Assembly (NCBI RefSeq): GCF_000160135.1
Contig: NZ_GG729933.1
Span: 564,816-628,815, forward strand
Length of the DNA stretch: 64,000 nt
DNA from: Oribacterium sp. oral taxon 078 str. F0262
Lineage (GTDB): Bacteria; Bacillota; Clostridia; Lachnospirales; Lachnospiraceae
Direction of reading: 5' to 3'
The stretch's first letter is position 1, and each line of letters starts with the position of its first letter. Position numbers and translations under genes: made by a program. This document shows, piece by piece, positions 5,179-63,996 of this stretch. Under the pieces are notes generated by a model. It saw only the letters and a program-made list of their open reading frames with translations. It was not told the DNA's origin and ran no database searches.

Positions 5179-5184
5179 GGGCGC

Positions 5185-6621: not shown

Positions 6622-6998
6622 GCCCGCGGCTTTTCGTCCATCCGGCAGGGAAGCGCGATGGGAGGGGAAGAGTCAATGGCGGAGGGGAGTGATTCTGCCC
6701 ATCAGAAGGAAAAATATATCCGGCAGGGCGCACAGTGCATGGAGATCGGGGCGCATCATAAGAGAAAAGGATAGATGGATGATAGATGCAGTATGCCCGC
6801 TTTAAAGACGAAGCGCAGAGGGATCGGACTGCATTGGAAGGGGAAAGAAAGCCGGCTCGATATCTTGTGCCTGCTTCGGGGCTAAGGTGCAGAGGGATTG
6901 GATCACATCCGAGGGAAAAAGACAGATCTCTTCGCCGCGCTTTCTGAGGAGGAAGAGAACAGAGATCGGATCGTATCGTAATCAAAGGGGGAAAAGAA
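6622..6998. other. Intergenic region with no recognised gene
   Basis: 377 bp between the flippase and the acyltransferase. Frames on both strands here are short or lack ribosome binding sites, and their products are Arg/Ser/Pro-rich as expected for shadow frames. I see no tRNA, no strong hairpin with a T tract and no convincing promoter. The site AAAGGGGGAAAAGAA ahead of 6999 serves the next gene. It may be the decayed remains of a gene. Confidence 0.5.
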
Positions 6999-24109: not shown

Positions 24110-24493
24110 CCGCCTCGGCGCTTCGCCCGGGAGGCATCAACCGATCTCCCTTCGGGAGACAGTTCTCTTCGAGAAGTGGTCAGGTACGCTCCGAGTCTGC
24201 CTGATGGCAGACTTCTGCGCTCTTGCTTCGTCGCATCCGCAGCTCAGCGACTCGGCTTCGCCCGGGAGGCATCAGCCGATCTCCTTTCGGAAGACAGTTC
24301 TCTTCGAGAAGTGGTCAGGTACGCTCCGAGTCTGCCTGATGGCAGACTTCTGCGCTCTTGCTTCGCCGCATCCGCAGCTCAGCGACTCGGCTTCGCCCGG
24401 GAGGCATCAGCCGATCTCCCTTCGGGAGACAGTTCTCTTCGAGAAGTGGTCAGGTACGCTCCGAGTCTGCCTGATGGCAGACTTCTGCGCTTA
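24110..24493 (-). repeat. Three-copy array of 135-bp hairpin mosaic (repeat unit A)
   Basis: The block CTTCGCCCGGGAGGCATC recurs at 24121, 24256 and 24391, an exact 135-bp period. It is the reverse complement of the family at 1.8-2.2 kb. It shares CTCCC/GGGAG and TTCTC/GAGAA stems with TTC loops, and the AGTCTGCC/GGCAGACT palindrome. The spacer between units differs from that of the first array (CATCCGCAGCTCAGCG instead of a GCTTCG stem). It fills the space between two convergent genes. Frames through the array are artefacts of repetition. Confidence 0.9.
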
Positions 24494-24555
24494 CTCGCCG
24501 CGGGTCGCGGCAGCCGGAGCGAGAGCGTTCTGTACCGGGAGGACAAACGGCAGAA
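24494..24555 (-). repeat. Half copy of repeat unit B at the thiI 3' end
   Basis: On the minus strand this segment matches unit B's left half: CTGCCG, then a GTCC-like run, then AACGCTCTCGCTCC and GGCTGCCGCG. The right arm of the palindrome is missing. It lies 15 bp after the thiI stop and directly joins the unit A array, so A and B again occur together. Confidence 0.7.
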
Positions 24556-24570
24556 AAAGCAACACGGCTT

Positions 24571-28890: not shown

Positions 28891-28947
28891 CCTTGGCCGC
28901 GGCAGTCGGAGCGAGAGCGTTCTTTGCCGGGCGGGAAAAGCGGCAGA
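28891..28947 (-). repeat. Half copy of repeat unit B after ruvX
   Basis: Read on the minus strand it gives CTGCCGCTTTTCCCGCCC, then AACGCTCTCGCTCC and GACTGCCGCGGCCA, the same order as the left half of the element at 62.4 kb. No matching right arm is present. It lies 70 bp after the ruvX stop and before the RNase J promoter region. Confidence 0.7.
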
Positions 28948-28999
28948 GAATGTACCGTTAAGATCCGTGCCAAAGACAGGCACAATGATAAAGGATAAG

Positions 29000-41877: not shown

Positions 41878-42728
41878 TTCTGAAGGTGGAGGGGGGCTGC
41901 TACTCCTATCCGGAAGGAGGGCAGATCCTGAATGGGATTTCTCTTGATGTGAGGGAGGGGAGGATGCTCTCCGTACTCGGTCCGAACGGCGTCGGGAAGA
42001 CGACACTCCTAAAGTGCATGACGGGGATACTGCCCTGGAAATCCGGGAGGTCTTTACTCCTTGGGAGGGATATCCGGAGGCTTAGGCCCCGGGAGATCTG
42101 GTCCGATATCTCCTATATCCCGCAGTCCCATTCCTTTGCCTTCTCCTTTTCCGGGCTTGAGATGGTCATTATGGGGAGGAGCGCCCATCTCGGGCCCTTC
42201 GCCCAGCCGGGGCAGAAGGAGCGGGAGCAGGCTTTGGAGCTTATGGAGAAGCTGCACATTACATCGCTCTCCGGAAAGGACTGCAATCAGATGAGCGGCG
42301 GAGAGCTGCAAATGGTGCTCATCGCGAAGGCTTTGATCAATCATCCGAAGCTTATCATCCTGGATGAGCCGGAGACCGGTCTGGACTTTCACAATCAGCT
42401 CCTCGTGCTGGACATGATTGACCGACTGGTTCACGAGGAGGGAATCGCGGCCGTCATGAACACCCATTATCCGACCAATGCCCTGGCCATCGCGGATGAG
42501 GCCTTCATGATGGACCGGGAGGGAAGCTATATCAGCGGAGCGGTCCGGGAGGTCCTCTGCGCGGAAAACATCGCGAGGGCGTTCCGGGTGAGAGTCGTCG
42601 TCAATGAAATTCACTTCAAGGGGAAGGCGCTGAAGAGCATCGTGCCGGTGGAGCTCATCCCCGAAGAAGCGGAGGCTTGGAATGAGAGAGAAGGAGAAGA
42701 CAAGCATGAAGAGAGAAGCAGGGCATGA
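41874..42728 (+). CDS. ABC importer ATPase (FecE/FepC-like)
   Basis: 284 residues. Walker A 'GPNGVGKTTLLKC', the signature 'NQMSGGELQMVLIAKAL' (MSGGE instead of LSGGQ), Walker B 'LIILDEPETGLDF' and the H-loop 'MNTHYP' are complete. It powers the FecCD permease. The end overlaps the methyltransferase gene by 23 bp, so that enzyme is made with the transporter. Confidence 0.94.
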   Translation: MILKVEGGCYSYPEGGQILNGISLDVREGRMLSVLGPNGVGKTTLLKCMTGILPWKSGRSLLLGRDIRRLRPREIWSDISYIPQSHSFAFSFSGLEMVIMGRSAHLGPFAQPGQKEREQALELMEKLHITSLSGKDCNQMSGGELQMVLIAKALINHPKLIILDEPETGLDFHNQLLVLDMIDRLVHEEGIAAVMNTHYPTNALAIADEAFMMDREGSYISGAVREVLCAENIARAFRVRVVVNEIHFKGKALKSIVPVELIPEEAEAWNEREGEDKHEERSRA

Positions 42729-43467
42729 ATTTCTGGCAAGACTTGGGAAGCGTCGGCTGAGACCGGGAGGGATCGCCGCGACGAACTGGCTTCTCGGAAA
42801 GGCAGAGTTTGGGAAGGATACGAAAGTCTTAGAGGTGGCGTGCAATATGGGGACCACGATGATTCGGATCGGAAGGCATTATCCCTGCCGTGTGATCGGG
42901 GTGGACCTGGATGAGGGGGCACTGGAGAAGGCAGGGCGGAATATCCGAAGAGCGGGCCTTCAGGACAGGCTCTCCGTGCAGAGGGCGGATGCCTATTGCC
43001 TTCCCTTCCCGGACCAGAGCTTCGACATCCTCATCAACGAGGCGATGCTTACGATGCTGACAGGGGACGGAAAGGACAGGGCACTTTCGGAGTACTACAG
43101 GGTACTGAAGCCGGGCGGACTCCTCCTCACCCATGATGTCTGCCTCTATGAAGAGAATCCCGAAAAGCAGCGGGAGCTTCGGGCCGGACTCAGCCGGGCT
43201 ATTCGGATGAATGTGGAGCCCTTGAGCGTCCCGGGCTGGAAGGCGGTCCTTGAGAAGCATTCCTTCCGGCCGGTGCAGCGCTATGGGAGGATCACGCTCA
43301 TGGACCCGATCGGGATGATCCGGGATGAGGGGCTCCTCCGCGCGGCTGCGATCATCCTGAGGGGACAGAAGAAAGAGGAGCGGGAGATGTTCCACACTAT
43401 GTCCCGCTACTTTAAGGAGCACGACAGAGAGCTTGGCTATATCGCAAGTGTGAGCGAAAAGCGATAA
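42706..43467 (+). CDS. Class I SAM-dependent methyltransferase coupled to the ABC importer
   Basis: 253 residues from ATG 42706, preferred over ATG 42682 because AAGGAG lies 9 bp upstream. 'VLEVACNMGTTMIRIGRHYPCRVIGVDLDEGALEKA' is the SAM-binding region, and 'RVLKPGGLLLTHDVCLYEENP' is typical of the UbiE/Methyltransf_11 group. Coupling to a chelate importer suggests it modifies the imported ligand or the chelator. An unrelated target is possible. Confidence 0.85.
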   Translation: MKREAGHEFLARLGKRRLRPGGIAATNWLLGKAEFGKDTKVLEVACNMGTTMIRIGRHYPCRVIGVDLDEGALEKAGRNIRRAGLQDRLSVQRADAYCLPFPDQSFDILINEAMLTMLTGDGKDRALSEYYRVLKPGGLLLTHDVCLYEENPEKQRELRAGLSRAIRMNVEPLSVPGWKAVLEKHSFRPVQRYGRITLMDPIGMIRDEGLLRAAAIILRGQKKEEREMFHTMSRYFKEHDRELGYIASVSEKR

Positions 43468-52472: not shown

Positions 52473-53180
52473 ATGAAAAAAAGGATAGCGGGATTCATGG
52501 CACTTTGTCTCATCGGGGCATCGCTTGCATCGTGCAGCGCTTCGGCGGATAAGGGAAGCAGCAAGGCGCCGGAGGCGAAGACAGAGGCGGCAGAGGCCGT
52601 ACCGGCGGAGAATGCGGAAAAGCTCTCCGCGGGGGGAGCGGAGCTGAGGGAGGTTTCTGTCCTCGAGACCGGGGTGATCAGCTCGATCGATGAGAAGAGC
52701 GGGAGCATCGTGATCCGGACGGAGGTTCAGGGAGAGGATGGAAAGACCGAGGAGGATGAGCTCGTCGCGAATACGGACGCCTCGACGCCGGTCGTGAGCG
52801 CGGAGAGCGGAAAGAGACTCTCCCGCTCCGATCTGAAGGTCGGGATGAGGGTATCCGCCTGGATGTCTCCGGAGTACACGGCGAGCTACCCGCCCCAGAG
52901 CTGGGCGCTTGCGTTCATCACGGATATCGATAATGGAGATGTCCCCTATTATGCCGAGATCAAATCGGTGAAGAGAAAGAAGTGGGGGATGCTGCTCACC
53001 GATACGAGCGGGCGCAAGTGGAGCATCCGGGAGGATACGGTCCCGTACGGCTCTGAGGGGAAGAAGGAGAGCTGGCTCGGCGATCTGAAGAAGGGATCGA
53101 AATGCCTGATCTGGCCGAAGAAGCTCGCTGTGAATAAGGGAGGAGACGTCCTGGAGGCGGAGAAGCTGGAGATTCTGTAA
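52473..53180 (+). CDS. Lipoprotein of unknown function
   Basis: 235 residues with lipobox LASC (C21) and an Ala/Glu-rich linker. The domain beyond ~65 has alternating beta-type sequence ('TGVISSIDEKSGSIVIRTEV', 'DLKVGMRVSAWMSPEYTASYPPQSWAL') resembling small OB-like lipoproteins of the DUF3221 kind. AGAAAGGAGCTC precedes the ATG. As the last gene before a strong terminator it may be an output of the two-component system just upstream. Confidence 0.75.
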   Translation: MKKRIAGFMALCLIGASLASCSASADKGSSKAPEAKTEAAEAVPAENAEKLSAGGAELREVSVLETGVISSIDEKSGSIVIRTEVQGEDGKTEEDELVANTDASTPVVSAESGKRLSRSDLKVGMRVSAWMSPEYTASYPPQSWALAFITDIDNGDVPYYAEIKSVKRKKWGMLLTDTSGRKWSIREDTVPYGSEGKKESWLGDLKKGSKCLIWPKKLAVNKGGDVLEAEKLEIL

Positions 53181-53268
53181 CAAAAGAGGACGGACCGGTT
53201 TCTGTTTGCTAAGTTGATTTGACCGCTTTTCCGCTTTGCCGCCCCATAAGCCGTGCTTCAGAAGGAGC

Positions 53269-53308
53269 AGGGCAGTCGGAGTAGGAGCGAGCGGCAGAGC
53301 GAAACGGC
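53269..53308 (-). repeat. Degenerate piece of repeat unit B
   Basis: GGGCAGTCGGAGTAGGAGCG followed by AGCGGCAG and GAAACGGC resembles the reverse complement of unit B's CGCTCTCGCTCCGACTGCC stretch, with several changes. It lies 88 bp after a stop codon and directly before the terminator, again a 3'-end position. Confidence 0.45.
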
Positions 53309-53317
53309 ATCTTTTAG

Positions 53318-53357
53318 AAAGACCGCCGCATGGATTTTCCATGCGGCGGTCTTTTTT
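53318..53357 (+). terminator. Strong intrinsic terminator
   Basis: A 17-bp perfect stem (53318-53334 with 53338-53354, core GACCGCCGCATGGA) has a TTT loop and ends in a T run through 53357. It separates the redox/two-component operon from the biosynthetic cluster. Confidence 0.95.
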
Positions 53358-53380
53358 AGGGATATCCTTCGGAAAGAGTA

Positions 53381-53408
53381 ATATTTTTTCGGAAAAATAT
53401 GCTATACT
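53381..53408 (+). promoter_or_regulatory. Promoter with palindrome for the 53.6-62.4 kb cluster
   Basis: An extended -10, TGC-TATACT (53400-53408), is preceded by an AT-rich perfect palindrome, ATATTTTT (53381-53388) and AAAAATAT (53393-53400) around TCGG. The palindrome occupies the -35 region, where no consensus box is seen, so an activator or repressor site is plausible. Confidence 0.6.
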
Positions 53409-53428
53409 AATTAGTGTAAAAATCCCTT

Positions 53429-53467
53429 CCGGACAGCAGCCGCACAAAAGCGGATGCAGCTGTCCGG
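53429..53467 (+). other. Structured 5' leader hairpin
   Basis: CCGGACAGC (53429-53437) and GCTGTCCGG (53459-53467) form a perfect 9-bp stem, with an inner CCGC/GCGG stem (53440-53443 with 53450-53453). It lies about 20 nt downstream of the expected transcription start in a ~215-nt untranslated leader. I could not match it to a known riboswitch class (checked by eye for c-di-GMP, TPP, glycine, guanidine and ZTP motifs). Confidence 0.5.
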
Positions 53468-53628
53468 CGCTCTGCTCAGCAAAAGCCGCAGGCATGACAA
53501 AGGATAGGTTTTGATTCAATTTTATTCTGAAGATCTTTTTCTTTTATGGCAGTAAAACTTCTTTAGGTGGACATCGCTTCATCCGAACAGACATGATGGA
53601 TTGACAGCAGCAGAGGAGGAAGTGGCCT

Positions 53629-55140
53629 ATGAAGAGTATCGATCAGCTTCTTTGGGAAAATGCGGCGAAGTATGGGGAGGAGGCCTATCTCTACGAGAAG
53701 GTGGGGGATTTTTACCGGGCTCAGAGCTATGCGGGCTTTTACCGGGATGTGCTTCGCTTTGCGAGAGTTCTTCGGAAAAAGGGTCTCGAGGGGAAAAAAA
53801 TCGGAATCTATTCGGAGAATTCCTGTCTTTCTATGGCGGCAGACCTCGCGGTTCTCGGATATACCGGGATATCCGTGGCGCTCTCCGAATACTGGGACGG
53901 AAAACAGCTTCTCGAGATCTGCGGGAGTCTGGAGCTGGATGCGATCCTGTATGCGCCGGGGAGGGAGGACTCGCTCCGCCTGCTCCGGGAGCGCTTTCCG
54001 TCGCTCTGTCTTCTCTCTCTCTATGAGCTTCAGCGGGAGAGCATGCGTCTTCCGGAATGGAAATATGCCGCGGCGGCGCGCCGTTCCTTTTCCGGAGCGA
54101 AGTATGAATATGCCGGCCTTTACAACAACACCTTTCCGCCCGGGAGATGGGCGAGCCAGTCGGAAAATGGCTGTGTGAAGATTGTCTTCTCCTCCGGAAG
54201 CACCGGGGAACCGAAGGCGGTCATGCTCTCTCTCCGAAATATTTTCGCCAATCAGGAGAATACCTTTCAGAGAGCGCCGATCCGGCACACAGACCGCGCC
54301 TACCTTTTTCTTCCCCTGAGCCACACCTTCGGGGAGATCGGAAACTTTCTCTATTCCCTGATCAGCGGCATGAAGATCGCGCTCTCCAGCGGAAAGGACA
54401 GGATCCTTTCCGAGCTCGCGGAGCTTCATCCCACGGTACTCTGCGCGGTTCCCCTCGTGCTGGAACGGATCTATCGGATCTCGGAGGAGACGGGGAAGAG
54501 TATCTCCGCCCTCCTCGGGGGGAATATCCGCTTCCTCTTTTCCGGCGGGGCGGCCCTTCGGACGGAGATCCGGGCGGCAATCAAGTCAGAGCGGATCAAC
54601 CTGATTGAGGCCTACGGCCTCACGGAGACCGCCTCCATCATAAGCCTGGAATATTCCTACCAAAGCCATGATATCAGCTCCTCCGGGACGGTCCTGGAGA
54701 ATCAGTCCGTCCGCATCGCGAAGCCGGATTCCGACGGCATCGGGGAGATCTGCGTGAAGGGGGACAATGTCTTTATCGGCTACTACGGGAGGGAGGATTA
54801 CTACCGCTCCTGCTTCGACCGGGATGGGTATTTTCACACCGGGGACCTCGGCTTTCTTCGGGGAGGGAAGCTCTATCTGAAGGGGAGGAAGACGCGTATG
54901 ATCCTCCGCTCGAACGGGCAGAATATCTATCCGGAGGAGCTGGAGCAGTGCCTGCGGCAGGCTCTTTCCCTGGACAGAGCGGAGCTCTCGGAGGAGGGAG
55001 GACATATCCACGCGAGGCTCTACAGCGGGGAGCTCCCTGAGGACGGGCTTTTGGAGAGGGTCAACGACATTCTCCCGAAGTACGCGCAGATTGAGAGTGT
55101 AGAGCTTCTCAGGAAGCAGGATCCCCGGCAGTGGAAGTAG
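53629..55140 (+). CDS. AMP-forming acyl/aryl ligase (ANL superfamily)
   Basis: 503 residues. The P-loop is 'KIVFSSGSTGEPKAVMLSLRN', A5-type 'EAYGLTETASIISLEY', the hinge aspartate is in 'GYFHTGDLGFLRGGKLYLKGRKTRMILRSNGQNIYPEELE', and the catalytic lysine region is near the end. It would activate a carboxylic acid as acyl-adenylate and pass it to CoA or another thiol or amine. Most like long-chain fatty acid ligases. GAGGAGGAAGTGG precedes the ATG. First gene of the cluster, with its own promoter. Confidence 0.92.
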   Translation: MKSIDQLLWENAAKYGEEAYLYEKVGDFYRAQSYAGFYRDVLRFARVLRKKGLEGKKIGIYSENSCLSMAADLAVLGYTGISVALSEYWDGKQLLEICGSLELDAILYAPGREDSLRLLRERFPSLCLLSLYELQRESMRLPEWKYAAAARRSFSGAKYEYAGLYNNTFPPGRWASQSENGCVKIVFSSGSTGEPKAVMLSLRNIFANQENTFQRAPIRHTDRAYLFLPLSHTFGEIGNFLYSLISGMKIALSSGKDRILSELAELHPTVLCAVPLVLERIYRISEETGKSISALLGGNIRFLFSGGAALRTEIRAAIKSERINLIEAYGLTETASIISLEYSYQSHDISSSGTVLENQSVRIAKPDSDGIGEICVKGDNVFIGYYGREDYYRSCFDRDGYFHTGDLGFLRGGKLYLKGRKTRMILRSNGQNIYPEELEQCLRQALSLDRAELSEEGGHIHARLYSGELPEDGLLERVNDILPKYAQIESVELLRKQDPRQWK

Positions 55141-55186
55141 GGACGGACTGAGTCTTTGGGGAGAGAGAAAGGCGGCAGAGAGAGCG

Positions 55187-56125
55187 ATGGAGAAGGAGTC
55201 CTCTGAGATATCGGAGAGGGATATCCTGCGGTTTTCGGACTATGCGGAGTGGTTTCGGGAGGGAAGCTGCGAGGCCTGTCTCATTGTAAACCGGGGGATT
55301 TCGGAGCATCCCTGCATGTTTGGCTTTCCAAAGCTGGACGGGAGTTTTTCCGAGACCGGGCGTCTTTTTGAAAGGATGGAGAGGCGGGCCGCGGAGCTCG
55401 GCTTTTCTGAGCTCATGGGTCCTGTCAATTATTGCACCTGGATGTCCTACCGCTTTGCCATCAGCGGCTTCTCCATCCATTATTTTCCGGACTGTGAGAA
55501 TTCCCCCGAGGCTGTGGACTGGCTCAGGAGGCTTCATTACCGGGAGCTCTACAGCTATCGGAGCGCTGCCGTCCTGATCGATAATCCGCTCCTTCAAAGA
55601 GCCGCGGAGAGCTACCGAAGCCTCCTCTCAGAGGGATACCGCTTTTTGGAATATCGCGGAGAGGAGGCGCTCGGCCTCGCCGGGGAGATCTATGAGATTT
55701 CCCGAGACGCATTTTCCGCGGCGCTTCTCTATTCCGAGCTCCCGCGGGAGGCCTTCGATCGAATCTACTTAAGCCGCTTCCGGAGCCTTCCCCTCGTTCT
55801 GGCTGCGGCCTTCTCTCCGGAGGGAGAGATGATCGGCTATATCTACGGCTACCCGAATCCCCTGGGAACAGAATTTATCTCCAAGACAAGTGCCGTGAAA
55901 AAGCGCTTTCAAAAGCATGGAGTCTATGCGGCTCTTCTCTGCTTTGGCTCGGAGCTTGTGCGAAGGGCCGGCTATCACGAGATCGTCTATCACTTTCAGT
56001 GCGAGCAAAAGCCCGGCTTTCGGCGCTTCCCGGAGCAGTATGAGTCCCGGGAGAAGCGCTACGCGGTCTTTTCGAAGAGCCTTCGGGGCGGAGGAGGACA
56101 GGAGATTCAGAGAGGAGAGCTGTGA
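55187..56125 (+). CDS. GNAT-like acyltransferase protein
   Basis: 312 residues. The second half has a recognisable GNAT-like core ('SLPLVLAAAFSPEGEMIGYIYGYPNP', 'FISKTSAVKKRFQKHGVYAALLCFGSELVRRAGYHEIVYHF'); the first half ('MGPVNYCTWMSYRFAISGFSIHYF') is like the N-lobe of double-GNAT proteins next to acyl ligases. It likely transfers the group activated by the upstream ligase. The stop lies inside the first of the 72-bp repeats. Confidence 0.65.
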   Translation: MEKESSEISERDILRFSDYAEWFREGSCEACLIVNRGISEHPCMFGFPKLDGSFSETGRLFERMERRAAELGFSELMGPVNYCTWMSYRFAISGFSIHYFPDCENSPEAVDWLRRLHYRELYSYRSAAVLIDNPLLQRAAESYRSLLSEGYRFLEYRGEEALGLAGEIYEISRDAFSAALLYSELPREAFDRIYLSRFRSLPLVLAAAFSPEGEMIGYIYGYPNPLGTEFISKTSAVKKRFQKHGVYAALLCFGSELVRRAGYHEIVYHFQCEQKPGFRRFPEQYESREKRYAVFSKSLRGGGGQEIQRGEL

Positions 56126-56290
56126 GCAGGCGCTGCCAAGAGCGCAGGCTGTATCCGGCCCTCCCTTGAGAAGCTAGTGATCAATCCGGGGCTGTGAATG
56201 GGCGCTGTCAAGGGCATAGGCTGGATCCGGCCCTTCCTTAGGATGATAGTGATCAATCCGAGGCTGTGAGAAGGCGTTGTCAAAGGCAGA
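56119..56290. repeat. 72-bp direct repeats
   Basis: GCTGTGA starts units at 56119, 56191 and 56263, exactly 72 bp apart, with blocks such as AGGCTG-ATCCGGCCCT, TAGTGATCAATCCG and GGCGYTGTCAA shared. The third unit is partial. The minus strand stays open through the array with a repeated peptide, but it has no ribosome site and I do not call it a gene. Confidence 0.8.
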
Positions 56291-56413
56291 GGCCCGCATC
56301 CACAGCGCGCGGGGCGAGGGATCGAGCGCTGTGGCGGGAGAGTCTGAATCCGAGTCTTCGGCGAAGCAGCGCGGCTGGGATCGGAGAGGAAAGGGGAGAT
56401 TTTCGGAGAGCTC

Positions 56414-57472
56414 ATGAGGTGCAGAATCTGTCTGAATGATGAGACGGTGCGGGGGATCCGCTTTCATGCGGATGGCATCTGTAATTTCTGTAAAAATTAC
56501 TTGAGAGACAGAGAGAAGCTGAGGGATTACGAGAGTCTCGGGAAGCTGTTTTCGGAGCGGATCGAGAGGATCAGAGGAAAGCATCGCTATGACGCCGCGG
56601 TCGGCATCTCCGGAGGGAAGGACAGCATCTATGTGCTCTATGAGCTGAAAAAACGCTACCGGCTCAGGATCAAGGCCTTCACGCTCTGCAACGGCTTTTT
56701 GAGTGAGAGGGCGAGGAGCAATATCGACCGCATCGTATCGGAGCTTTCGGTGGAGCACGAATATATCCGCTTTGAGAAAAGCTTTCTGCAGCGCCTCTAC
56801 CGAAGCTCAGTCCGAAAATGGCTCACGCCCTGCATCGCCTGTTCCTATCTGGGCTATGCCTCAATGATCCGCTTTTCCGCCCGGGAGGACGCCGCTCTCG
56901 TCATCCACGGGAGAAGCCCGGAGCAGATGTTTCGCTGCTATGGGGAGGATGTCTTCACGGAGCTGATCCGCGCGGGCCTTAAACCTCCCGAAGAACTGGA
57001 GCTTCCTAAGCTTTATCAGAGACTTCTGTCCTTGATCGAGGAGAAGCTGGACCGGGAGCTCCGGGAAGAGGCGAGGGCGCTGCTCTTTCCGGATTCCCGG
57101 GGAGAGCTCCGGGAGTTCCTGGCCTACTTCCTCTATCATCCCTACCGGGAGGAGGAGATCGTCCGCTTTCTCCGAACGAAGACGAGCTGGGACCCGGGAG
57201 AGGAATATCAGCACTATGACTGCCGCATCCATCTCGCGCCGAAATACATCTATCAGAGGGCGGAGGGACGCCCGCACTGTCTTCCGGAGCTCAGCTTTCT
57301 CGTCCGGGACTCCCAGCTTGGAAGGGAAGAGGCCGGGAGGCGCCTCAGAGAGGAATGGATGGAGGAAAAGCCGGAGGAGGCGATGCGGGAGCTCTTTCAT
57401 TTTATCGGAAGGCCGCAGTTTCCGACGCTCTGGAAGGCAGAGCTCTACCGACGTTTTCTCTCCCGCCGCTAG
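56414..57472 (+). CDS. PP-loop ATPase with zinc-ribbon start (sugar amidotransferase-like)
   Basis: 352 residues. Two CxxC pairs (C3/C6 and C23/C26) probably bind zinc. The PP-loop motif is 'AAVGISGGKDSIYVLYEL' (residues 62-79), and 'LTPCIACSYLGYASMI' adds a CxxC. This layout resembles WbpG/PseA-type N-acetyl sugar amidotransferases and thiolases acting by adenylation, though the C-terminal ~150 residues are unlike them. It may make an amidine, amide or thio group. It begins 124 bp after the 72-bp repeats. Confidence 0.8.
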   Translation: MRCRICLNDETVRGIRFHADGICNFCKNYLRDREKLRDYESLGKLFSERIERIRGKHRYDAAVGISGGKDSIYVLYELKKRYRLRIKAFTLCNGFLSERARSNIDRIVSELSVEHEYIRFEKSFLQRLYRSSVRKWLTPCIACSYLGYASMIRFSAREDAALVIHGRSPEQMFRCYGEDVFTELIRAGLKPPEELELPKLYQRLLSLIEEKLDRELREEARALLFPDSRGELREFLAYFLYHPYREEEIVRFLRTKTSWDPGEEYQHYDCRIHLAPKYIYQRAEGRPHCLPELSFLVRDSQLGREEAGRRLREEWMEEKPEEAMRELFHFIGRPQFPTLWKAELYRRFLSRR

Positions 57473-57487
57473 GAAGAGGGCGGAGAG

Positions 57488-58108
57488 ATGAGAGTGCTTT
57501 TTAAGATAAGGGGACGGGAAAAAGAGGGGGATATGCGCTTTTTTCAATATTTTTTCTATAAGGGCCGTATCCTTTTCTATGCCCTCCTCTCCCTTCTCTT
57601 TGCGGCTTTACTTCTTTTTTTTCGGAGCTTGTCCGGGGAGAGGGGGCCTTCTTCCCTTCACTTTCTCCTTCCCCTCTTTGGACTCATCCTTTTACAGCTT
57701 CTCTCTTCCCGTATCGCGGATGATTTTTTTGATTACGAAGCGGACAGAGCCGGGAAGGATCAGAGAAGGAGCGATTCCCTTCCCCCGAGGATCGAGAAAG
57801 CGGAGCTTCTGCTTCTCTATCTTTTCTCCGCTCTTTTATACTTTCTCCTCCTTTTTCATTTCTTCGGAGCGATTCCGTGCTTTTTTGCGGGGCTATTTTC
57901 CCTTTCTGTTTTTCAGGAGCTCTTCCCTTTCTTAAAGCCGTTTACGGCAAGTCTCAGCGCGGCGGCGTATCTCTTCCTTCTCTCTGAGCATACGGCAGTA
58001 TTTCGTCTGCCTGCTTCCTCCCTTATACTTTTCTTCCTGCTTTTTTCCCTATCTTTCTTCTATGGAATCCGGAAGAGGAAGGGGAGGGGAGGATCAGGGG
58101 AGCTCTGA
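57488..58108 (+). CDS. Short UbiA-like membrane protein
   Basis: 206 residues (ATG 57533 is an equally good start), with about six Phe/Leu-rich membrane segments. 'SSRIADDFFDYEADRAGKDQ' fits the NDxxDxxxD magnesium-diphosphate motif of UbiA prenyltransferases with Asp for Asn (D78, D79, D82, D86). The length is about two thirds of a normal UbiA protein, and I do not find the second Asp-rich motif. It may be a reduced prenyltransferase or phosphatase-like relative. Confidence 0.6.
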   Translation: MRVLFKIRGREKEGDMRFFQYFFYKGRILFYALLSLLFAALLLFFRSLSGERGPSSLHFLLPLFGLILLQLLSSRIADDFFDYEADRAGKDQRRSDSLPPRIEKAELLLLYLFSALLYFLLLFHFFGAIPCFFAGLFSLSVFQELFPFLKPFTASLSAAAYLFLLSEHTAVFRLPASSLILFFLLFSLSFFYGIRKRKGRGGSGEL

Positions 58109-58373
58109 GCTTCGGGATCGCGTGGAACGGCCCTTCCTAAGGATCCGTCTTAGACAGCTCGGATAAGATCTATGCTTATGCCGGCGATTCTTCTTAGGCG
58201 GTACAGATAAGATAGAGGCAGAGCGATGGGGCGGCGGGCGCAAAGAGACGGATCCGGAGAGAAAAGAGAAAGAGGAAAGAGACGCTTTTTCGAGAGAGGC
58301 AGAGAAGAGGAGAGGGCAGAGATGCGGGAGCGCCCGGCAGGCAGAGGCAATGAGGATAGAGCGCAGGGGGGAA

Positions 58374-58490
58374 AAGGCGGAAATGTGCCTTTGGAGCGAA
58401 GCGGAGAGGAAGGCGGAAATGCATCTTCGGAGAGCAGCAGGAAGAAAGGCAGAAATGCAGCCTTTAGAGAGCGGCAGAGAGAAAAGGAGG
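58374..58490. repeat. 36-bp imperfect tandem repeats before the phosphotransferase gene
   Basis: AAGGCGGAAATG, AAGGCGGAAATG and AAGGCAGAAATG start at 58374, 58410 and 58446, a 36-bp period; a fainter fourth start is near 58484 in the ribosome binding site. The whole 58109-58495 spacer is purine-rich and keeps one frame open, which makes a long N-terminal extension of the next gene appear. Confidence 0.65.
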
Positions 58491-58495
58491 AAGCT

Positions 58496-61219
58496 ATGGA
58501 AAAAGGAAAGAGGGAGGAGCGAGAAAAGTCGTCGGGGAGAATTCCGGATCTCTCCCTTCTTCCCGTTCTCGGCGGGAAGGGCTGGCATCTTCAGCGTCTC
58601 CGCGCGCTCGGCTTTTTGACGCCGGATTTTTTCATCTGGGGGAGCGGCTGTTTCTACGATTTTCTCGGAGAGGAGCTCTCCCATTTTCAGGAGCTTCTTC
58701 TCAGCTACCGGGGAGAGAGGGAGATCCTCGATGAGATGAGGAATCTCATCCTGGGAAGGGAGCTCCCGCTTCGGATGCGGGAGAGCCTGGACAGAGAGCT
58801 TCGCCTCCATTTCCCGGATGGGAGGCGCTTTGCGGTCCGCTCCAGCGCCATTGATGAGGACGGGGAGCGGCACAGCTTTGCGGGAATGATGGACTCTGTC
58901 CTGAATCTGAGCACAGAGGACGATTATATCGCCGCTCTTAAGAGCTGCTATGCCTCCTGTTTTTCAGAGCGTGCGATGGAGTATCGGAGGAGAGAGGGGA
59001 TACTCAGGGGGGATCTTTCGATCGCCGTGATCTTTCAGGAGATGGTGGAGGCGGATTTTTCCGGTGTCCTCTTCACGACGGATCCCGCGACAAACGATCC
59101 GGACGAGCTCCTCGTAAGTCTGGCAGCGGGGAACGGGGAGGGGCTGGTATCCGGGAGTAAAGACAGCCTCGACTATACCGTAGATATTCTGGGGAGGCTT
59201 TCTCCCTGTTCGGAGGAGGCCGAGAGAGCTCTCGAAGACTCCTCCTTGAAGGTCTTCGGAGGAAGGAGAGGGCTCTCTGCATCTCTTATTCTCCGGCTTG
59301 CTGAGCTGGGAAGGGCGGTGGAACGGAGCTATCCGAGGCGGCGCGCCCGGGATCTGGAATTTGCCGTGAGAGGGGATGAAATCTATCTCCTCCAGGACAG
59401 GCTCATTACGGCCTATCGGCAGATCGATAAGAACAGAGCCCGCACGATATTGGACAATGCCAATATTATCGAGAGCTATGCCGGCGTCACGACGGATCTC
59501 ACATACAGCTTCGCAAGAGAGGTCTATGAAAAAATTTACCGGCAGACGCTCCGGCATTTCCTGATCCCGGAGAAGGAGATCGAGCGGATCCGGCCGGAGC
59601 TCTCCCACATGATCGTATTCTATGAGAACAAGATCTATTACTGCCTGAACAGCTGGTACAAGATGACAGCGCTCTACCCGGGATATGAGAAGAACAAGTC
59701 CTATATGGAGGCCATGATGGGGGTGAAGGTGGAGTGGAAGGAGCCGGTGCAGAAGGCGAAGCTCCGGAAGGCCCGCATCTACCTTCGCTTTCTGAAAAGG
59801 ATGCTCCGCATAGAGAGAGACAGCCGGAATTTTCTCCGGCGCTTTGAAAGAGTCACCGCTCCCTATCAGGGGGCGGACTTCGAGGGCTGGGAGAATTCTG
59901 CACTAAAGGCGCTCTACGCCAGGCTCGAGAGAGAGATCCTCGATGATTTCACAACGCCGATCATCAATGATATCGCCGCGATGCTCTCCTACGGTTCGCT
60001 TTTGTCCCTCCTTCGGAAGAAGAGGGGGGAGGACGCGGAAATGCTTCTTGGGAGAGAGCTGTCCCGGCAGGGAGGAGTGGAGAGCGCGGAGCAAAGCTTC
60101 GCCTACCGGGAGCTTGTGGAGAAGCTTCGGGAGGATCCAAGGGGAAGGGCCCTTTTCCGGGAGCACAGCGGAAAAGAGTTCTCGGAGCTTTTTAAGAGGA
60201 GGGGAGGAAAAGAAGAGGAGGCGCTTTTTTCGGGGATTCGATCCTATATCAAAAGGTTCGGGGCGAGGAGTATGGAGGAGTTAAAGCTCGAGACGATCAC
60301 CCTTTTGGAGGACCCGGAGCCGCTCTTTTCCGCTCTGAAGGAGGAGCTTCAGCGGGAAGAGAGCGGAAAGGGAGGGAGGATCGGAAAAAGCGGCAAATCG
60401 CATAAGAAAAAGCGGGGGATGACAGGAAGGAGAGAGCGGCGTCTTTCCAAAGGCATGGGGAGAATGGGGCTGAGCGCCTATTTGCTCCTTCGCCTCACAA
60501 AATACTTTATTCGAAACCGGGAGCGTCTTCGTCTTCGCAGGACCTACATCTATGCGATTGTCCGGAGGATTTTTCTCCGGATTGGGAAAAACCTCGCAGA
60601 GGAGGGCCTGATTTCAGAGGAGAGGGATATCTTCTTTCTCACGAAGCCGGAGATTTTCTCCTGGATCGACGGGGAGAGGGAGGACTCCCGGGGCTGGAAG
60701 GAGCGTATCGCCGGGAGGAAGAAGAAGTTTTCGGAGAATCGGGAAAAGCCCGCTCCCCCGAGGATGTACTTCTACGGGGAGCTCTGTCCGGAGAATATGC
60801 TTTCTGTGTCGAAGCGAAGCTCGGCCGCAGAAAGAAGAAGGGAGAGAAGTACTTCCGGAGGGAGGAGACTCTTCGGCATCCCCGGCGGCGGAGGAAGGAT
60901 AAGGGGGGAGATCCGGATTGTGAGGAAGCCGGAGGATCTTCCGGAGCCCGGCTTTATCCTGGCGGCGGAGCGCACCGATCCCGGCTGGACGGTGCTTTTT
61001 CCCCGGGCGAAGGCGCTCCTCATCGAGAGGGGGAGCCTGCTCTCTCACTCCGCCGTGATCGCGAGAGAGATGGGGCTTCCCGTCGTGATCTGCGTCCCGG
61101 GACTGATGAAGAAGCTTCACGATGGAGACCGTGTTTTGGTAAACGGCACCGAGGGCTGGATCGAGATAGAGGAGAGTCAGGAGGCGGGGGAAGAGAGAAG
61201 TGCCGGCAGCAGAAAATAA
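58496..61219 (+). CDS. PEP-synthase-like / rifampin phosphotransferase-like enzyme
   Basis: 907 residues from ATG 58496 behind AAAAGGAGG (58482-58490). The N-terminal ATP-grasp (PPDK_N) domain has 'FAVRSSAIDEDGERHSFAGMMDSVLN' and 'IAVIFQEMVEADFSGVLFTTDPAT'. The C-terminal mobile domain has the phospho-histidine H851 in 'GSLLSHSAVIAREMGLPVVICVPG'. A basic, poorly conserved middle stretch (about 610-640) separates them. No PEP-binding TIM barrel is present. It should split ATP and move a phosphate from His to a small molecule, as rifampin phosphotransferase does. Confidence 0.9.
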   Translation: MEKGKREEREKSSGRIPDLSLLPVLGGKGWHLQRLRALGFLTPDFFIWGSGCFYDFLGEELSHFQELLLSYRGEREILDEMRNLILGRELPLRMRESLDRELRLHFPDGRRFAVRSSAIDEDGERHSFAGMMDSVLNLSTEDDYIAALKSCYASCFSERAMEYRRREGILRGDLSIAVIFQEMVEADFSGVLFTTDPATNDPDELLVSLAAGNGEGLVSGSKDSLDYTVDILGRLSPCSEEAERALEDSSLKVFGGRRGLSASLILRLAELGRAVERSYPRRRARDLEFAVRGDEIYLLQDRLITAYRQIDKNRARTILDNANIIESYAGVTTDLTYSFAREVYEKIYRQTLRHFLIPEKEIERIRPELSHMIVFYENKIYYCLNSWYKMTALYPGYEKNKSYMEAMMGVKVEWKEPVQKAKLRKARIYLRFLKRMLRIERDSRNFLRRFERVTAPYQGADFEGWENSALKALYARLEREILDDFTTPIINDIAAMLSYGSLLSLLRKKRGEDAEMLLGRELSRQGGVESAEQSFAYRELVEKLREDPRGRALFREHSGKEFSELFKRRGGKEEEALFSGIRSYIKRFGARSMEELKLETITLLEDPEPLFSALKEELQREESGKGGRIGKSGKSHKKKRGMTGRRERRLSKGMGRMGLSAYLLLRLTKYFIRNRERLRLRRTYIYAIVRRIFLRIGKNLAEEGLISEERDIFFLTKPEIFSWIDGEREDSRGWKERIAGRKKKFSENREKPAPPRMYFYGELCPENMLSVSKRSSAAERRRERSTSGGRRLFGIPGGGGRIRGEIRIVRKPEDLPEPGFILAAERTDPGWTVLFPRAKALLIERGSLLSHSAVIAREMGLPVVICVPGLMKKLHDGDRVLVNGTEGWIEIEESQEAGEERSAGSRK

Positions 61220-61268
61220 AAGGGGATCTGCGGGCTTCTGGGAGATGCGGCAGAGGAGGACAGGAAGG

Positions 61269-62366
61269 ATGGAGGACAGACGTTTTCGCTTTCTTCGCTA
61301 TGCGAATTGCTGGGAGGACAGCAGGATTATAAGGGAAGGGCTTTCGATCCGGCCCGGGGAGAGAGGGCTTTCGGTCGCCTCCGGCGGAGACAATGCGCTC
61401 TTTCTCCTGACGGCGGATCCCGCGGAGATCGTGGCATTTGACTGGAATCACTCGGAGCTCGCCTGTACAGAGCTGAAGATGGCGGGCTTTCGGGAGCTTT
61501 CCCACGCGGAGCTTCTCGCCTTTTTGGGAGTGCGCCCCTCTGGGAAGCGGCAGGAGAGCTACCGAAAGCTTCGGGAGGGGCTTTCAGAGTCCTCCAGGGC
61601 GTATTTTGACAGGCATCCGGGGATAATCCGGAGGGGCTTGATCCACTGCGGCAAATTTGAGCGGTATTTCCAGCTCTTTCGGCGGGGGATCGCCCCGCTG
61701 TTTTGCTCCTCCCGGAGGCTTTCGGAATTTTGCAGGCTGAGGGAGCCGGAGGAGCAGAGGGCATTTTACGGGCGCTGGATCGACGGGAAGCGCTTCCGCG
61801 CGATCTTTCGGCTCTATTTCGGGGTGAGGCTTATGGGAAGGCTCGGAAGAGACCGAAGCTTTTACCGCCATGTCGGGGATACCGATCATTTTCCGGAGGA
61901 GGTGAAGGCGCGATTTGAGTATGGGATAAGCCACAGCAGAAACTTCGAAAATCCGTATCTTAGCTACATTCTCAGAGGGAATTACTCGGAGAGCTCTCTC
62001 CCGGACTATCTGAGGGAGGAAAATCATGACTGCATCCGCAGAAGGCTCGATCGTCTCCGACTGTTCCGGGGGAGCCTTCTGGAGGTCCCGGAGGGAAGGC
62101 CCTTCGACTTTCTGAATCTCTCGGATCTCTTTGAGTACATGGACGAGGAGGAGTTCTCGGAAAATGAGAGAAAGCTCTCGGCTCTCGCCTCTCCCGGGGC
62201 CCGCATTGCACTGTGGAATATGCAAAACAGACGTTATCTTCGGAAGGACGATTTTTTAGCGGAGGAAGAGGAGAGCAGGCGGCTTTTTTCGAAAAACCGA
62301 TCCTATTTTTACCGGGATTTTACGATTTATCATGTCCCGGGGGATCTTCTTCCTCACGAGCCTTAG
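61269..62366 (+). CDS. BtaA-like DUF3419 protein (SAM 3-amino-3-carboxypropyl transferase family)
   Basis: 365 residues from ATG 61269, with GAGGAGGA at 61253-61260. 'RYANCWEDSRIIREGL', 'GLSVASGGDNALFLLTADPAEIVAFDWNHSELACTELKMA' and 'FDFLNLSDLFEYMDEEEF' are the hallmarks of DUF3419/BtaA, which moves the aminocarboxypropyl group of SAM to diacylglycerol in betaine-lipid synthesis. No BtaB N-methyltransferase is nearby, so the product would stop at a homoserine ether or differ. Last gene of the cluster. Confidence 0.88.
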   Translation: MEDRRFRFLRYANCWEDSRIIREGLSIRPGERGLSVASGGDNALFLLTADPAEIVAFDWNHSELACTELKMAGFRELSHAELLAFLGVRPSGKRQESYRKLREGLSESSRAYFDRHPGIIRRGLIHCGKFERYFQLFRRGIAPLFCSSRRLSEFCRLREPEEQRAFYGRWIDGKRFRAIFRLYFGVRLMGRLGRDRSFYRHVGDTDHFPEEVKARFEYGISHSRNFENPYLSYILRGNYSESSLPDYLREENHDCIRRRLDRLRLFRGSLLEVPEGRPFDFLNLSDLFEYMDEEEFSENERKLSALASPGARIALWNMQNRRYLRKDDFLAEEEESRRLFSKNRSYFYRDFTIYHVPGDLLPHEP

Positions 62367-62384
62367 AGGGCTGGAGGCCGCCTT

Positions 62385-62523
62385 TTCTGCCGCTTTGTCC
62401 GCCCTGCACAGGACGCTCTCGCTCCGACTGCCGCGGCCAGCGGCGCATAAGCGATTTTCAGGACCAAATCGCTAAACGCCGGGGCGGCAGACGGCCTGCG
62501 CTTGGGCAGGCAAAGCGGCAGAA
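62385..62523. repeat. Nested palindromic element (repeat unit B, copy 2)
   Basis: Perfect 13-bp terminal inverted repeats TTCTGCCGCTTTG (62385-62397) and CAAAGCGGCAGAA (62511-62523) enclose a core shared with copy 1 at 2.2 kb. The inner stem is AGCGATTT (62450-62457) with AAATCGCT (62466-62473); in copy 1 it is AGCGATCT with AGATCGCT, so one base pair has been exchanged for another. It starts 19 bp after the BtaA-like stop. A small non-autonomous mobile element or a structured 3' RNA are both possible. Confidence 0.85.
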
Positions 62524-62562
62524 CGGCTGCTTAAAATGTGGGGCTTTCAGTGATCCGGGGGT

Positions 62563-62702
62563 CCTGAAGGAGCGGGGGAGGCACTTCTCTTCGAGAAGAC
62601 TCAAGGACGCTCCGAGTCTGCCTGATGGCAGACTTCTGTGCTTATGCTTCGCTGCGTCCGCAGCTCAGCGACTCGGCTTCGCCCGGGAGGCATCAGCCGA
62701 CC
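62563..62702 (-). repeat. Single copy of hairpin mosaic (repeat unit A)
   Basis: It contains CACTTCTCTTCGAGAAG, CTCCGAGTCTGCC-TGAT-GGCAGACTTCT, GCAGCTCAGCGACTCGGC and CGCCCGGGAGGCATCAGCCG in the same order as the 24-kb array, but the CTCCC/GGGAG stem is missing from its usual place. It ends 1 bp before the TAG of the convergent glycosyltransferase. With unit B next to it, it repeats the A+B arrangement of the first locus in mirror image. Confidence 0.85.
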
Positions 62703-62703
62703 T

Positions 62704-63996
62704 CTACATTCTCAGGCGTTTTTTCAGGTTCTGGAAGACCTTTTCTCTGAGGGCGCGGTAGTTTTTCTTTTCGCCTTCGCTCATTCCTTCTGTGCTGTTT
62801 TGCTCTTCCTCCGAGACAGCGCTGTCTATCGCATTCAGAATTCTTCCGGATTTTTCTGTGAGGGATGCGGTCTCCGGTTTTGCGAAGTCCATCTTCAGGT
62901 AGCCGCGGATCGAGAGATACTGAAGGAGAGCCTGCGCGGAAATTTTGGGGAGCTCCAGGTATTCGGAGAGCTCTTTTAAGTCGCCGACGCTGCCGAAGCT
63001 ATGAAGGTAGAGGAGGACGGAAAGCTCGCGGCGCTCCAGATCAAAGCGGCTCATCACGGAGCGGAAGAGGCGCTGAAACATGCGCTCCTCATAGTAATGC
63101 TTTGTCCAGGAATTTTCCCGGACGAAGTCGTGGGCGACTTTCGTCCTCTCCTCTCCGAGTTTTTTGGATCCCGGAAGGAGGGGGATCGCTTCATTGTCTC
63201 GGGAGTAATCGAGCAAAAAGCGGTAGATTTCCGCGCGCTTTTTCGCATAATCCTCCGGACTGTAGACATTTTTATAGAAGTCGGAGTAGTAGTCGATCAC
63301 ATTCAGCTTCATGCGGATGATGTCGCTCGCATTGAGTCCCTGCTGGACGAGGGAGCCCTCCGTCTTTACATAGTAGTAGATCGGGACGCGGAGCACATAG
63401 ATCCTGTCTGCGTGAAGGAGATACTCCATATTAAAGATGAAGTCCTCGCACCAGCGGAGCTCCGGGTCCATCCGGAGACCATAGCGCTCGATGATATCCC
63501 GGCGGAAGAGCTTGTTCCAGAGGACGCCGTAATAGTAGTCCGCGGGACTTTTCGCCATCCAGTCCGCAAACTCCTGCCTCGTGAGAAGTCCTTCCGTGTC
63601 GATAGAGCCCTTCCGGGAGATCCATTTCTCGACGACCCGGTAGAAATCCGCTATGACGATATCCGCCTTCTCTTTTTCCAGTGCGCGGACAAGCTGTCCG
63701 CTGGCCTCCGGAGTGATCCAGTCATCCGCATCGAGAAACTGGATATAGCGGCCCTTTGCGATGGAGAGCGCCGCATTTCTGGTATTGGAGACGCCGGAAT
63801 TTTCCTTATGGATGACACGGATCCTCGCATCCTTTTCGCAGAAGCTGTCACAGAGCTTTTCGGAGCCGTCCTTGCTGCCATCGTCCATGAGGAGGAGCTC
63901 GAAGTCTTTGAAATCCTGTGAGAGGATACTGTTTACACAGCGGCTGAGCGTCTCCTTGGCATTATAGATCGGTACAATGATGGAAAGTACAGGCAT
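62704..63996 (-). CDS. Glycosyltransferase family 2 with C-terminal MarR-like winged helix
   Basis: 430 residues. Residues 1-240 are a GT2 (GT-A) domain: 'LSIIVPIYNAKETLSRCVNSIL', 'LLMDDGSKDGS', 'GVSNTRNAALSIAKGRYIQFLDADDW' (DxD at 89-91) and 'WCEDFIFNMEYLL'. Residues ~318-428 look like a MarR domain: 'ELSVLLYLHSFGSVGDLKELSEYL', 'ISAQALLQYLSIRGYLKM', 'ASLTEKSGRIL' and an ending 'MSEGEKKNYRALREKVFQNL'. This pairing is unusual. The start lies 4 bp from the window edge, so a longer N-terminus is unlikely but not excluded. Confidence 0.88.
   Translation of the reverse strand: MPVLSIIVPIYNAKETLSRCVNSILSQDFKDFELLLMDDGSKDGSEKLCDSFCEKDARIRVIHKENSGVSNTRNAALSIAKGRYIQFLDADDWITPEASGQLVRALEKEKADIVIADFYRVVEKWISRKGSIDTEGLLTRQEFADWMAKSPADYYYGVLWNKLFRRDIIERYGLRMDPELRWCEDFIFNMEYLLHADRIYVLRVPIYYYVKTEGSLVQQGLNASDIIRMKLNVIDYYSDFYKNVYSPEDYAKKRAEIYRFLLDYSRDNEAIPLLPGSKKLGEERTKVAHDFVRENSWTKHYYEERMFQRLFRSVMSRFDLERRELSVLLYLHSFGSVGDLKELSEYLELPKISAQALLQYLSIRGYLKMDFAKPETASLTEKSGRILNAIDSAVSEEEQNSTEGMSEGEKKNYRALREKVFQNLKKRLRM

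Follow-up and report, generated by a model that had tools for sequence, protein, structure and literature searches.

What could six adjacent genes of Oribacterium sp. oral taxon 078 str. F0262 build together? The question is raised by positions 53629-62366 of a 64,000-nucleotide stretch of this genome (the window, numbered from its first letter), in which a first-pass annotation, made from the sequence alone, had placed six same-strand genes and proposed an undescribed biosynthetic set. A check of the open reading frames (ORFs) of the window found all six intact, on the + strand and at the places first given: an AMP-forming ligase (53629-55140), a tandem-GNAT N-acyltransferase (55187-56125), a PP-loop ATPase resembling N-acetyl sugar amidotransferases (56414-57472), a shortened UbiA-like membrane protein (57488-58108), an enzyme similar to rifampin phosphotransferase and phosphoenolpyruvate (PEP) synthase, hereafter PEPS (58226-61219), and a DUF3419 protein, a distant relative of BtaA (61200-62366). 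These six genes represent one form of a set that stays together across distant bacteria; as for its product, the enzyme families point, tentatively and somewhat short of an even chance, to an N-acylated aminocarboxypropyl ("homoserine-type") lipid or lipid-like molecule derived from S-adenosylmethionine (SAM).

Regarding conservation, the GTDB species genomes were scanned with a five-sequence DUF3419 alignment, which gave at least 553 confirmed relatives; the loci kept were the best 80 of these, ranked by similarity to the window DUF3419 protein, and most of them are metagenome-assembled genomes with taxon labels as deposited. Ten gene-type profiles were run over all reading frames of the kept loci, so that the maps label those ten types only, with one best family per frame; the seeds of the UbiA profile include the window sequence, hence its score in the window is circular. 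The first-pass annotation had staked its proposal on at least three of the six genes staying together in some other genome: 68 of the 80 loci, all found through DUF3419 alone, have at least three of PEPS, UbiA, GNAT, ligase (ANL) and PP-loop genes near DUF3419, and by a hand count from the tree labels such loci span about 18 phylum labels. The pairing of DUF3419 with a PEP-synthase-like protein, which it had also singled out, recurs in 75 of the 80 loci; ANL is present in 70, GNAT in 65 and UbiA (full or short) likewise in 65. When only the loci with at least 7 kb on both sides are counted, PEPS, UbiA, GNAT and ANL occur together in 33 of 38, that is 9 of 10 loci in the clade of the window and 24 of 28 others.

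Two main architectures emerge. The window clade comprises 18 loci, or 19 rows of the DUF3419 tree once the window is added (support 100/100), from Catonella, Oscillospiraceae, a Saccharibacterium and others, and it has PEPS-like genes in 18, ANL in 16, GNAT in 15, and PP-loop, short UbiA and an APH-type kinase in 14 each; phytol-kinase-like genes and HMG-CoA reductase (HMGR) are found in none. All six window gene types are present together in 14 of the 18 loci, and two of the four incomplete ones (L012 and L015) sit at contig ends, with other contigs of the same genomes carrying the PP-loop gene with the APH kinase and part of the PEPS gene. Most relatives in this clade also have the APH-type kinase and two ligases, in the usual order APH - GNAT - PP-loop - short UbiA - PEPS - DUF3419 - ANL1 - ANL2; intergenic distances range from -26 to 140 bp in Catonella and from -17 to 3 bp in L021. 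The remaining 62 loci form a wide version, with full UbiA, PEPS, DUF3419, a phytol-kinase-like protein, GNAT, an OleC-like ligase and sometimes HMGR; the counts are PEPS 57, phytol-kinase-like 56, ANL 54, UbiA 51, GNAT 50, HMGR 28, PP-loop 1 and APH 0, and a frequent order, subject to rearrangements, is HMGR - UbiA - PEPS - DUF3419 - phytol-kinase-like - GNAT - ANL. As a separate observation, an opposite-strand protein of 1156-1157 residues adjoins six of nine Gastranaerophilales-type clusters (L033, L036, L043, L055, L056 and L060); its L043 copy, the one searched, is an MFS-acyltransferase-ligase.

The cluster evolves as a unit, its partners diverging in step: the pairwise identities of DUF3419, PEPS, GNAT and ANL proteins correlate with Spearman coefficients of 0.70-0.87 over 60-70 loci, and none of 200 permutations gave a value as high. 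Trees and identity matrices were built on stop-to-stop frames, possibly with residues before the true starts, and partial frames too short for the set length limits were left out of alignments and trees. The spread of the set is patchy. DUF3419 occurs in 2 of 61 relatives and in 5 of 392 genomes of the order (the own genome included in both counts), in 2 of 197 genomes of the order to which the genome of L017 belongs (this one included), and in none of the 16 other genomes of the genus, which differ in completeness. Patchy spread combined with evolution as a unit is what a horizontally mobile module would show; the wide set is also found on a Roseinatronobacter plasmid, including a partial HMGR frame at the edge of the stretch analysed, and a scan of viral contigs found no relative. 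The PP-loop alignment was matched in 68 of 398 genomes of the phylum, with 573.7 bits in the own genome, 287.3 bits in one other (G762) and at most 105 bits in the rest, which are probably general PP-loop proteins. The G762 relative (L130:9196-10317) lies in another neighbourhood with no other mapped cluster gene, and an ORF of 1421 residues follows two genes on.

Turning to the single proteins, the family calls of the first-pass annotation stood, firmly by Pfam for the AMP-binding, PEP-synthase-like and DUF3419 proteins, and with weak sequence matches that lean on predicted structures for UbiA and GNAT. The ligase (PF00501, 6.8e-53) falls in the same group as ANL2, the second ligase of the Catonella/Oscillospiraceae clusters, in a quick tree (16-row clade, Shimodaira-Hasegawa-like approximate likelihood ratio support 100, long branches flagged) and is read as the ANL2 orthologue. 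The Pfam match of the GNAT protein is weak (E 0.09); its AlphaFold2 model, folded with a 44-row alignment (44 of the 58 sequences listed), has a predicted local distance difference test score (pLDDT) of 92.7 and aligns best with the tandem GNAT 7q3a (Z 18.0, root-mean-square deviation (rmsd) 4.0, 254 residues aligned), followed by MshD and Eis, with mycothiol synthase 2c27 at Z 16.6. By this model the window protein has two GNAT domains in one chain, and in the alignment it is 42-53% identical to 15 GNATs of the clade.

The nearest model for the PP-loop protein is that of the N-acetyl sugar amidotransferases (WbuX/WbpG, TIGR03573; 8.1e-35, residues 3-332), with which it shares the PP-loop and cysteine motifs, although its 120.8 bits lie below the cut-off of 203.2; SGGKDS (the PP-loop motif SGGxDS) and PCxxCSY are kept in 16 of 16 family members. 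The UbiA-like protein matches PF01040 under the cut-off (3.4e-4), and the structure that the first-pass annotation had wished to see modelled (pLDDT 82.2, 15-row alignment) does align with UbiA, but only over residues ~2-189 of the UbiA structures: 4od5, a UbiA homologue, gives Z 12.5 and rmsd 3.1 over 164 aligned positions (chain residues 2-185), and 7bpu gives Z 12.3. The top structure matches are UbiA proteins, yet helical bundles can reach Z 13 by arrangement alone and the best Foldseek E-value was 0.17, so the call leans also on the motif RxADDxxDYExD, of which R75, D78, D79, D82 and D86 are at least 90% conserved (n = 15). With 206 residues in the window, mostly 163-170 in relatives and 296-301 in three wide-version loci, the window protein appears, on model and alignment, to be a shortened form that keeps the first Asp-rich motif and is without the second half of the fold. 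Because of this shortness, a decayed pseudo-operon was considered and rejected: the same short form recurs in 14 of the 18 clade loci, and the remaining ORFs are all intact.

As for PEPS, it matches PPDK_N (PF01326, 4.3e-49) and PEP-utilizers (PF00391, 1.6e-20), and like Listeria rifampin phosphotransferase (RPH) and PEP synthase it has an ATP-grasp domain and a swivelling domain with a catalytic His; it differs from both in missing every curated NCBIfam cut-off among the 25 models shown (RPH 247.4 bits against 999, PEP_synth 163.3 against 739.75, and PRK06241.2-2, the nearest, 603.6 against 883). Its best solved relatives, matched in two separate stretches only, the best one being residues 527-880, are 5hv2, 5fbs and 5hv1; labelled PEP synthase in the PDB, they are rifampin phosphotransferases. 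The swivel His is found in 66 of 70 aligned PEPS-like proteins, the other four having gaps, and the ATP-grasp residues are present too. Rifampin phosphotransferase is reported to convert rifampin and ATP into phospho-rifampin, AMP and Pi (PMC4844700). The DUF3419 domain (PF11899, 7.9e-60) covers residues 27-377, most of the last protein, and all 85 aligned members share the R, Y, W, E and D of RYAxxWED; in HMGR, DKK and GQD are kept in 27 of 27, and 20 of these 27 also fit a strict catalytic-Glu pattern. The conserved motif residues are presumably the catalytic ones, and by them the cluster enzymes look active.

Gene co-location, co-divergence, conserved key residues and two main architectures are the observed frame for a proposed pathway. 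Carboxylic acids would be activated by its ligases (ANL, partly OleC-like), and an HMGR-type enzyme of the wide version could reduce a CoA thioester to an alcohol, which a kinase would then phosphorylate, phytol-kinase-like in the wide version and APH-type in the window clade. PEPS may add a further phosphate from ATP via its swivelling His, giving an activated chain whose (di)phosphate the UbiA-type membrane protein would bind, transferring or presenting the chain. The DUF3419 protein is expected to move the 3-amino-3-carboxypropyl group of SAM onto an acceptor, the resulting amine could receive, through the tandem GNAT, an acyl group activated by a ligase, and the PP-loop enzyme of the window clade probably converts a carboxylate into an amide. 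Hints of a membrane or lipid setting come from the UbiA-type proteins and from the MFS-acyltransferase-ligase beside the Gastranaerophilales-type cluster L043. The bolder version of this proposal is a new class of membrane lipids, in which an acid-activated, HMGR-reduced, twice-phosphorylated chain bears an N-acylated aminocarboxypropyl head, made by a portable operon of ~18 phyla and in trimmed form by Saccharibacteria; taken whole, it is possible and on balance unlikely.

Three clues bear on the chemistry. The first is HMGR: of the 29 loci that have it in the cluster, 20 (19 genomes and a plasmid record, the genomes differing in completeness) were searched for IspG and diphosphomevalonate decarboxylase. 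IspG was present in 17 of the 20 records and a convincing diphosphomevalonate decarboxylase in two (184.9 and 162 bits, against a cut-off of 171.35), both of them Bacteroidota genomes without IspG, and a third match was weak (20.4 bits); for this reason the cluster HMGR is probably not for isoprenoid supply. Among control genomes, a decarboxylase match occurred in 8 of 14 (two over the cut-off) and IspG in 9 of 14. No AdhE-type dehydrogenase that could stand in for HMGR in Clostridia and Melainabacteria was seen by eye among the large ORFs of ten loci.

The second clue is that the two kinase types exclude each other: phytol-kinase-like genes occur in 56 of 62 wide-version loci and in 0 of 18 clade loci, and separate APH genes in 14 of 18 and 0 of 62, respectively. 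Moreover, L035, a 10.8-kb deltaproteobacterial contig with no phytol-kinase-like match, encodes an HMGR-APH fusion (4612-7362; PF00368 at residues 147-519, PF01636 at 658-849), which was counted as HMGR because the maps keep one best family per frame. Its kinase domain matches, besides itself and among the loci searched, only the 14 APH kinases of the window clade (2.6e-23 to 1.4e-7). Given the kinase exchange between versions and this fusion, the kinase plausibly acts on the alcohol that the reductase would make. The third clue concerns the ligases: those of the wide version that were searched and ANL1 are nearest to PRK09274 (416.6 and 387.8 bits for two wide-version ligases, 168.5 bits for ANL1 of L021 and 112.7 bits for that of the own genome), and they differ from OleC and PRK09274 ligases in lying below all cut-offs (478, 850, 900); the L070 ligase, for example, scored 240.0/850 and 239.2/900 with the OleC models and 416.6/478 with PRK09274.

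Several points weigh against the lipid proposal. Each of its reactions is assigned from the family of the enzyme, and the window cluster has neither HMGR nor a kinase of either type; one-protein searches of the own genome, run without a positive control, returned no match for the Catonella APH kinase or for a phytol-kinase-like query. Within the wide version HMGR adjoins only 28 of 62 loci, some of which are cut by contig ends, and the L035 contig with the fusion shows no PEPS or ANL match. The label "phytol-kinase-like" reflects a reading of the sequence and one marginal Pfam match: among the members searched, L043 reached 24.7 bits with CTP_transf_1 (cut-off 24), and L070 and L010 gave no match. 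Prenyl transfer is doubtful for the window UbiA-like protein since it is without the rest of the fold. A branch of ~10 changes per column separates the cluster DUF3419 from the one BtaA tested, and owing to this distance the donor and the acceptor may differ. Finally, the set of L017, from a 0.9-Mb genome, consists of APH - GNAT - PEPS - DUF3419 only, and G983, from the order of the L017 genome, lacks the PP-loop gene but otherwise has the clade set.

L017 is not alone in its group: L017, L025, L016/L140 and L137 come from 0.9-Mb genomes labelled or grouped with Saccharibacteria, and they bear trimmed or near-full clusters. L017 and L025, both labelled Saccharibacteria, are the other two incomplete clade loci: their genomes gave no PP-loop match, and the 10 kb that follow DUF3419 contain no ligase. 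L016 lacks APH but keeps GNAT, PP-loop, short UbiA, PEPS, DUF3419 and the two ligases, and its neighbours resemble, by eye, those of L017. Saccharibacteria with acquired trimmed versions might perhaps remodel lipids derived from their hosts.

Among the other explanations, the one that survives best is a secreted or intracellular small molecule (a signal, siderophore or antibiotic), in whose synthesis PEPS would have a condensing or activating role, like its relatives PigC and RedH, and the PP-loop protein would form an amide or thioamide. PEPS does match the RedH and PigC models, with 231.8 and 210.3 bits, although far under their cut-offs of 1350 and 1300; the patchy spread (5 of 392 genomes of the order, 0 of 16 others in the genus) and the carriage of the set by a plasmid fit accessory metabolism, but UbiA-type genes in 51 and phytol-kinase-like genes in 56 of the 62 wide-version loci do not speak for such a product, and a specialised metabolite would not usually come with a near-constant set under ~18 phylum labels. 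This explanation is unlikely, if still a serious contender.

An isoprenoid-type module is improbable. It would have an alcohol doubly phosphorylated and attached by UbiA, to give a quinone-like or cofactor-like product decorated by DUF3419 and GNAT, and the adjacency of HMGR, phytol-kinase-like gene, phosphotransferase and UbiA in the wide version agrees with it, as does the first Asp-rich motif that the short UbiA retains. The known counterpart is tocopherol synthesis, with its module of phytol kinase, phytyl-phosphate kinase and UbiA transferase; the wide version resembles it in having a phytol-kinase-like protein beside UbiA and a second phosphotransferase, but this phosphotransferase is a different one, and DUF3419, GNAT, ligase and often HMGR are added, whereas the window clade departs further with its APH kinase and shortened UbiA. 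The parallel is best taken as an analogy and not as membership. Furthermore, the window clade has only the shortened UbiA and no HMGR, and most of the HMGR carriers tested use the other isoprenoid pathway.

Ordinary synthesis of betaine lipid (diacylglyceryl-trimethylhomoserine, DGTS) or of diacylglyceryl-homoserine, with extra genes alongside, is very improbable. The DUF3419 protein does belong to the BtaA family of aminocarboxypropyl transferases, sharing the WED motif with the BtaA/BtaB system of Rhizobium (L092), and Rhizobium BtaA matches the L144 copy of the window protein at 3.9e-22. The window cluster differs in having several other conserved partners and no BtaB: the Rhizobium BtaB query, which finds itself at 8.7e-154, gave weak matches at 4.3e-5 (L092), 2.0e-4 (window 42634-43464) and 3.1e-4 (L057, 18203-18832) and no BtaB among the cluster genes of the surveyed loci, the search covering these loci and not whole genomes. 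On this ground the cluster is not an ordinary betaine-lipid locus, and the absence of BtaB that the first-pass annotation had argued from is borne out. Conversely, Rhizobium BtaA adjoins a methyltransferase, and none of the cluster gene types is annotated within 6 kb of it. Known DGTS synthesis requires only BtaA and BtaB, and the very long branch to the one BtaA in the tree points the same way. A chance neighbourhood of unrelated genes, to which the gaps of 288 and 387 bp with their tandem repeats and the opposite-strand glycosyltransferase before the second ligase might lend some colour, has a practically negligible probability and was rejected by the partner counts (at least three partners in 68 of 80 loci, six types in 14 of 18 clade loci), with which the correlated divergence agrees.

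With the homoserine-type lipid or lipid-like molecule retained as the tentative candidate, the set is apparently undescribed: each enzyme is in or near a known superfamily, and no known pathway was identified that matches the whole. The open-access literature, to which the search was confined, yielded no description of such a cluster and no paper with both DUF3419 and UbiA, in line with the first-pass annotation, which knew of no pathway with this set. The near-constant presence of six to eight enzymes across many phyla suggests a useful, portable product. If this is a lipid, it would be a new lipid class in human oral and gut bacteria, planctomycetes, verrucomicrobia and others, and it would explain HMG-CoA reductases in bacteria that do not use the mevalonate route; the versions in Saccharibacteria bear on lipid handling by epibionts. 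The question is directly testable because named strains carry the cluster, among them Catonella morbi ATCC 51271 and Roseinatronobacter sp. S2, the latter on plasmid NZ_CP121116.

Regarding its limits, the cluster runs beyond position 62366, where the first-pass annotation had closed it after six genes. The first ligase of Catonella (ANL1), used as a query, had its best match in the own genome at C12:628927-630510, in two pieces; the gene, an ANL1 orthologue and the second ligase of this genome, spans G000:C12:628927-630570 (64112-65755 in window numbering), just past the end of the window, and is 39% identical to Catonella ANL1 over 537 columns. A gene for a family-2 glycosyltransferase on the - strand (62704-63996), between the DUF3419 gene and ANL1, splits the cluster; its relatives in four genomes of the same genus are 44-55% identical, and through them an empty insertion site was not resolved.

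On the left, the terminator first noted upstream of the cluster is present as a terminator-like hairpin with a T-run on the + strand (53309-53363), an inverted repeat with 26-nt arms (53309-53334 and 53338-53363) that are 85% complementary around a 3-nt loop, although it was absent from the output of a separate pattern scan. The single evident promoter was not confirmed: the scan of 53100-63000 gave 4 promoter-like sites against 2.6 expected, and the extended -10-like element TGCTATACT at 53400-53408 (+), a pattern match, is a weak candidate. The phosphotransferase ORF is present as first described, running at its longest from 58226; a start at 58496, behind AGGAGG, is more likely, and the codons between the two positions are repeat-rich.

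Both wide gaps of the window cluster, 288 and 387 bp, contain short tandem repeats. A 72-bp unit in 2.4 copies (56119-56293, + strand) lies in the 288-bp gap between the GNAT and PP-loop genes, which measures -1 and 1 bp in two relatives, and a 36-bp unit in 3.3 copies (58373-58492, + strand) lies between the UbiA-like gene and the likely PEPS start. Past the DUF3419 gene, a dispersed repeat, "unit B", occupies 62380-62530, with three partial copies at 2220-2312, 24488-24560 and 28894-28950 (57-93 nt, 85-94% identical to the 62380 copy). Two tandem arrays, at 1833-2198 and 24120-24491, have units of 131 and 135 bp in ~2.8 copies, matching at 96-97%.

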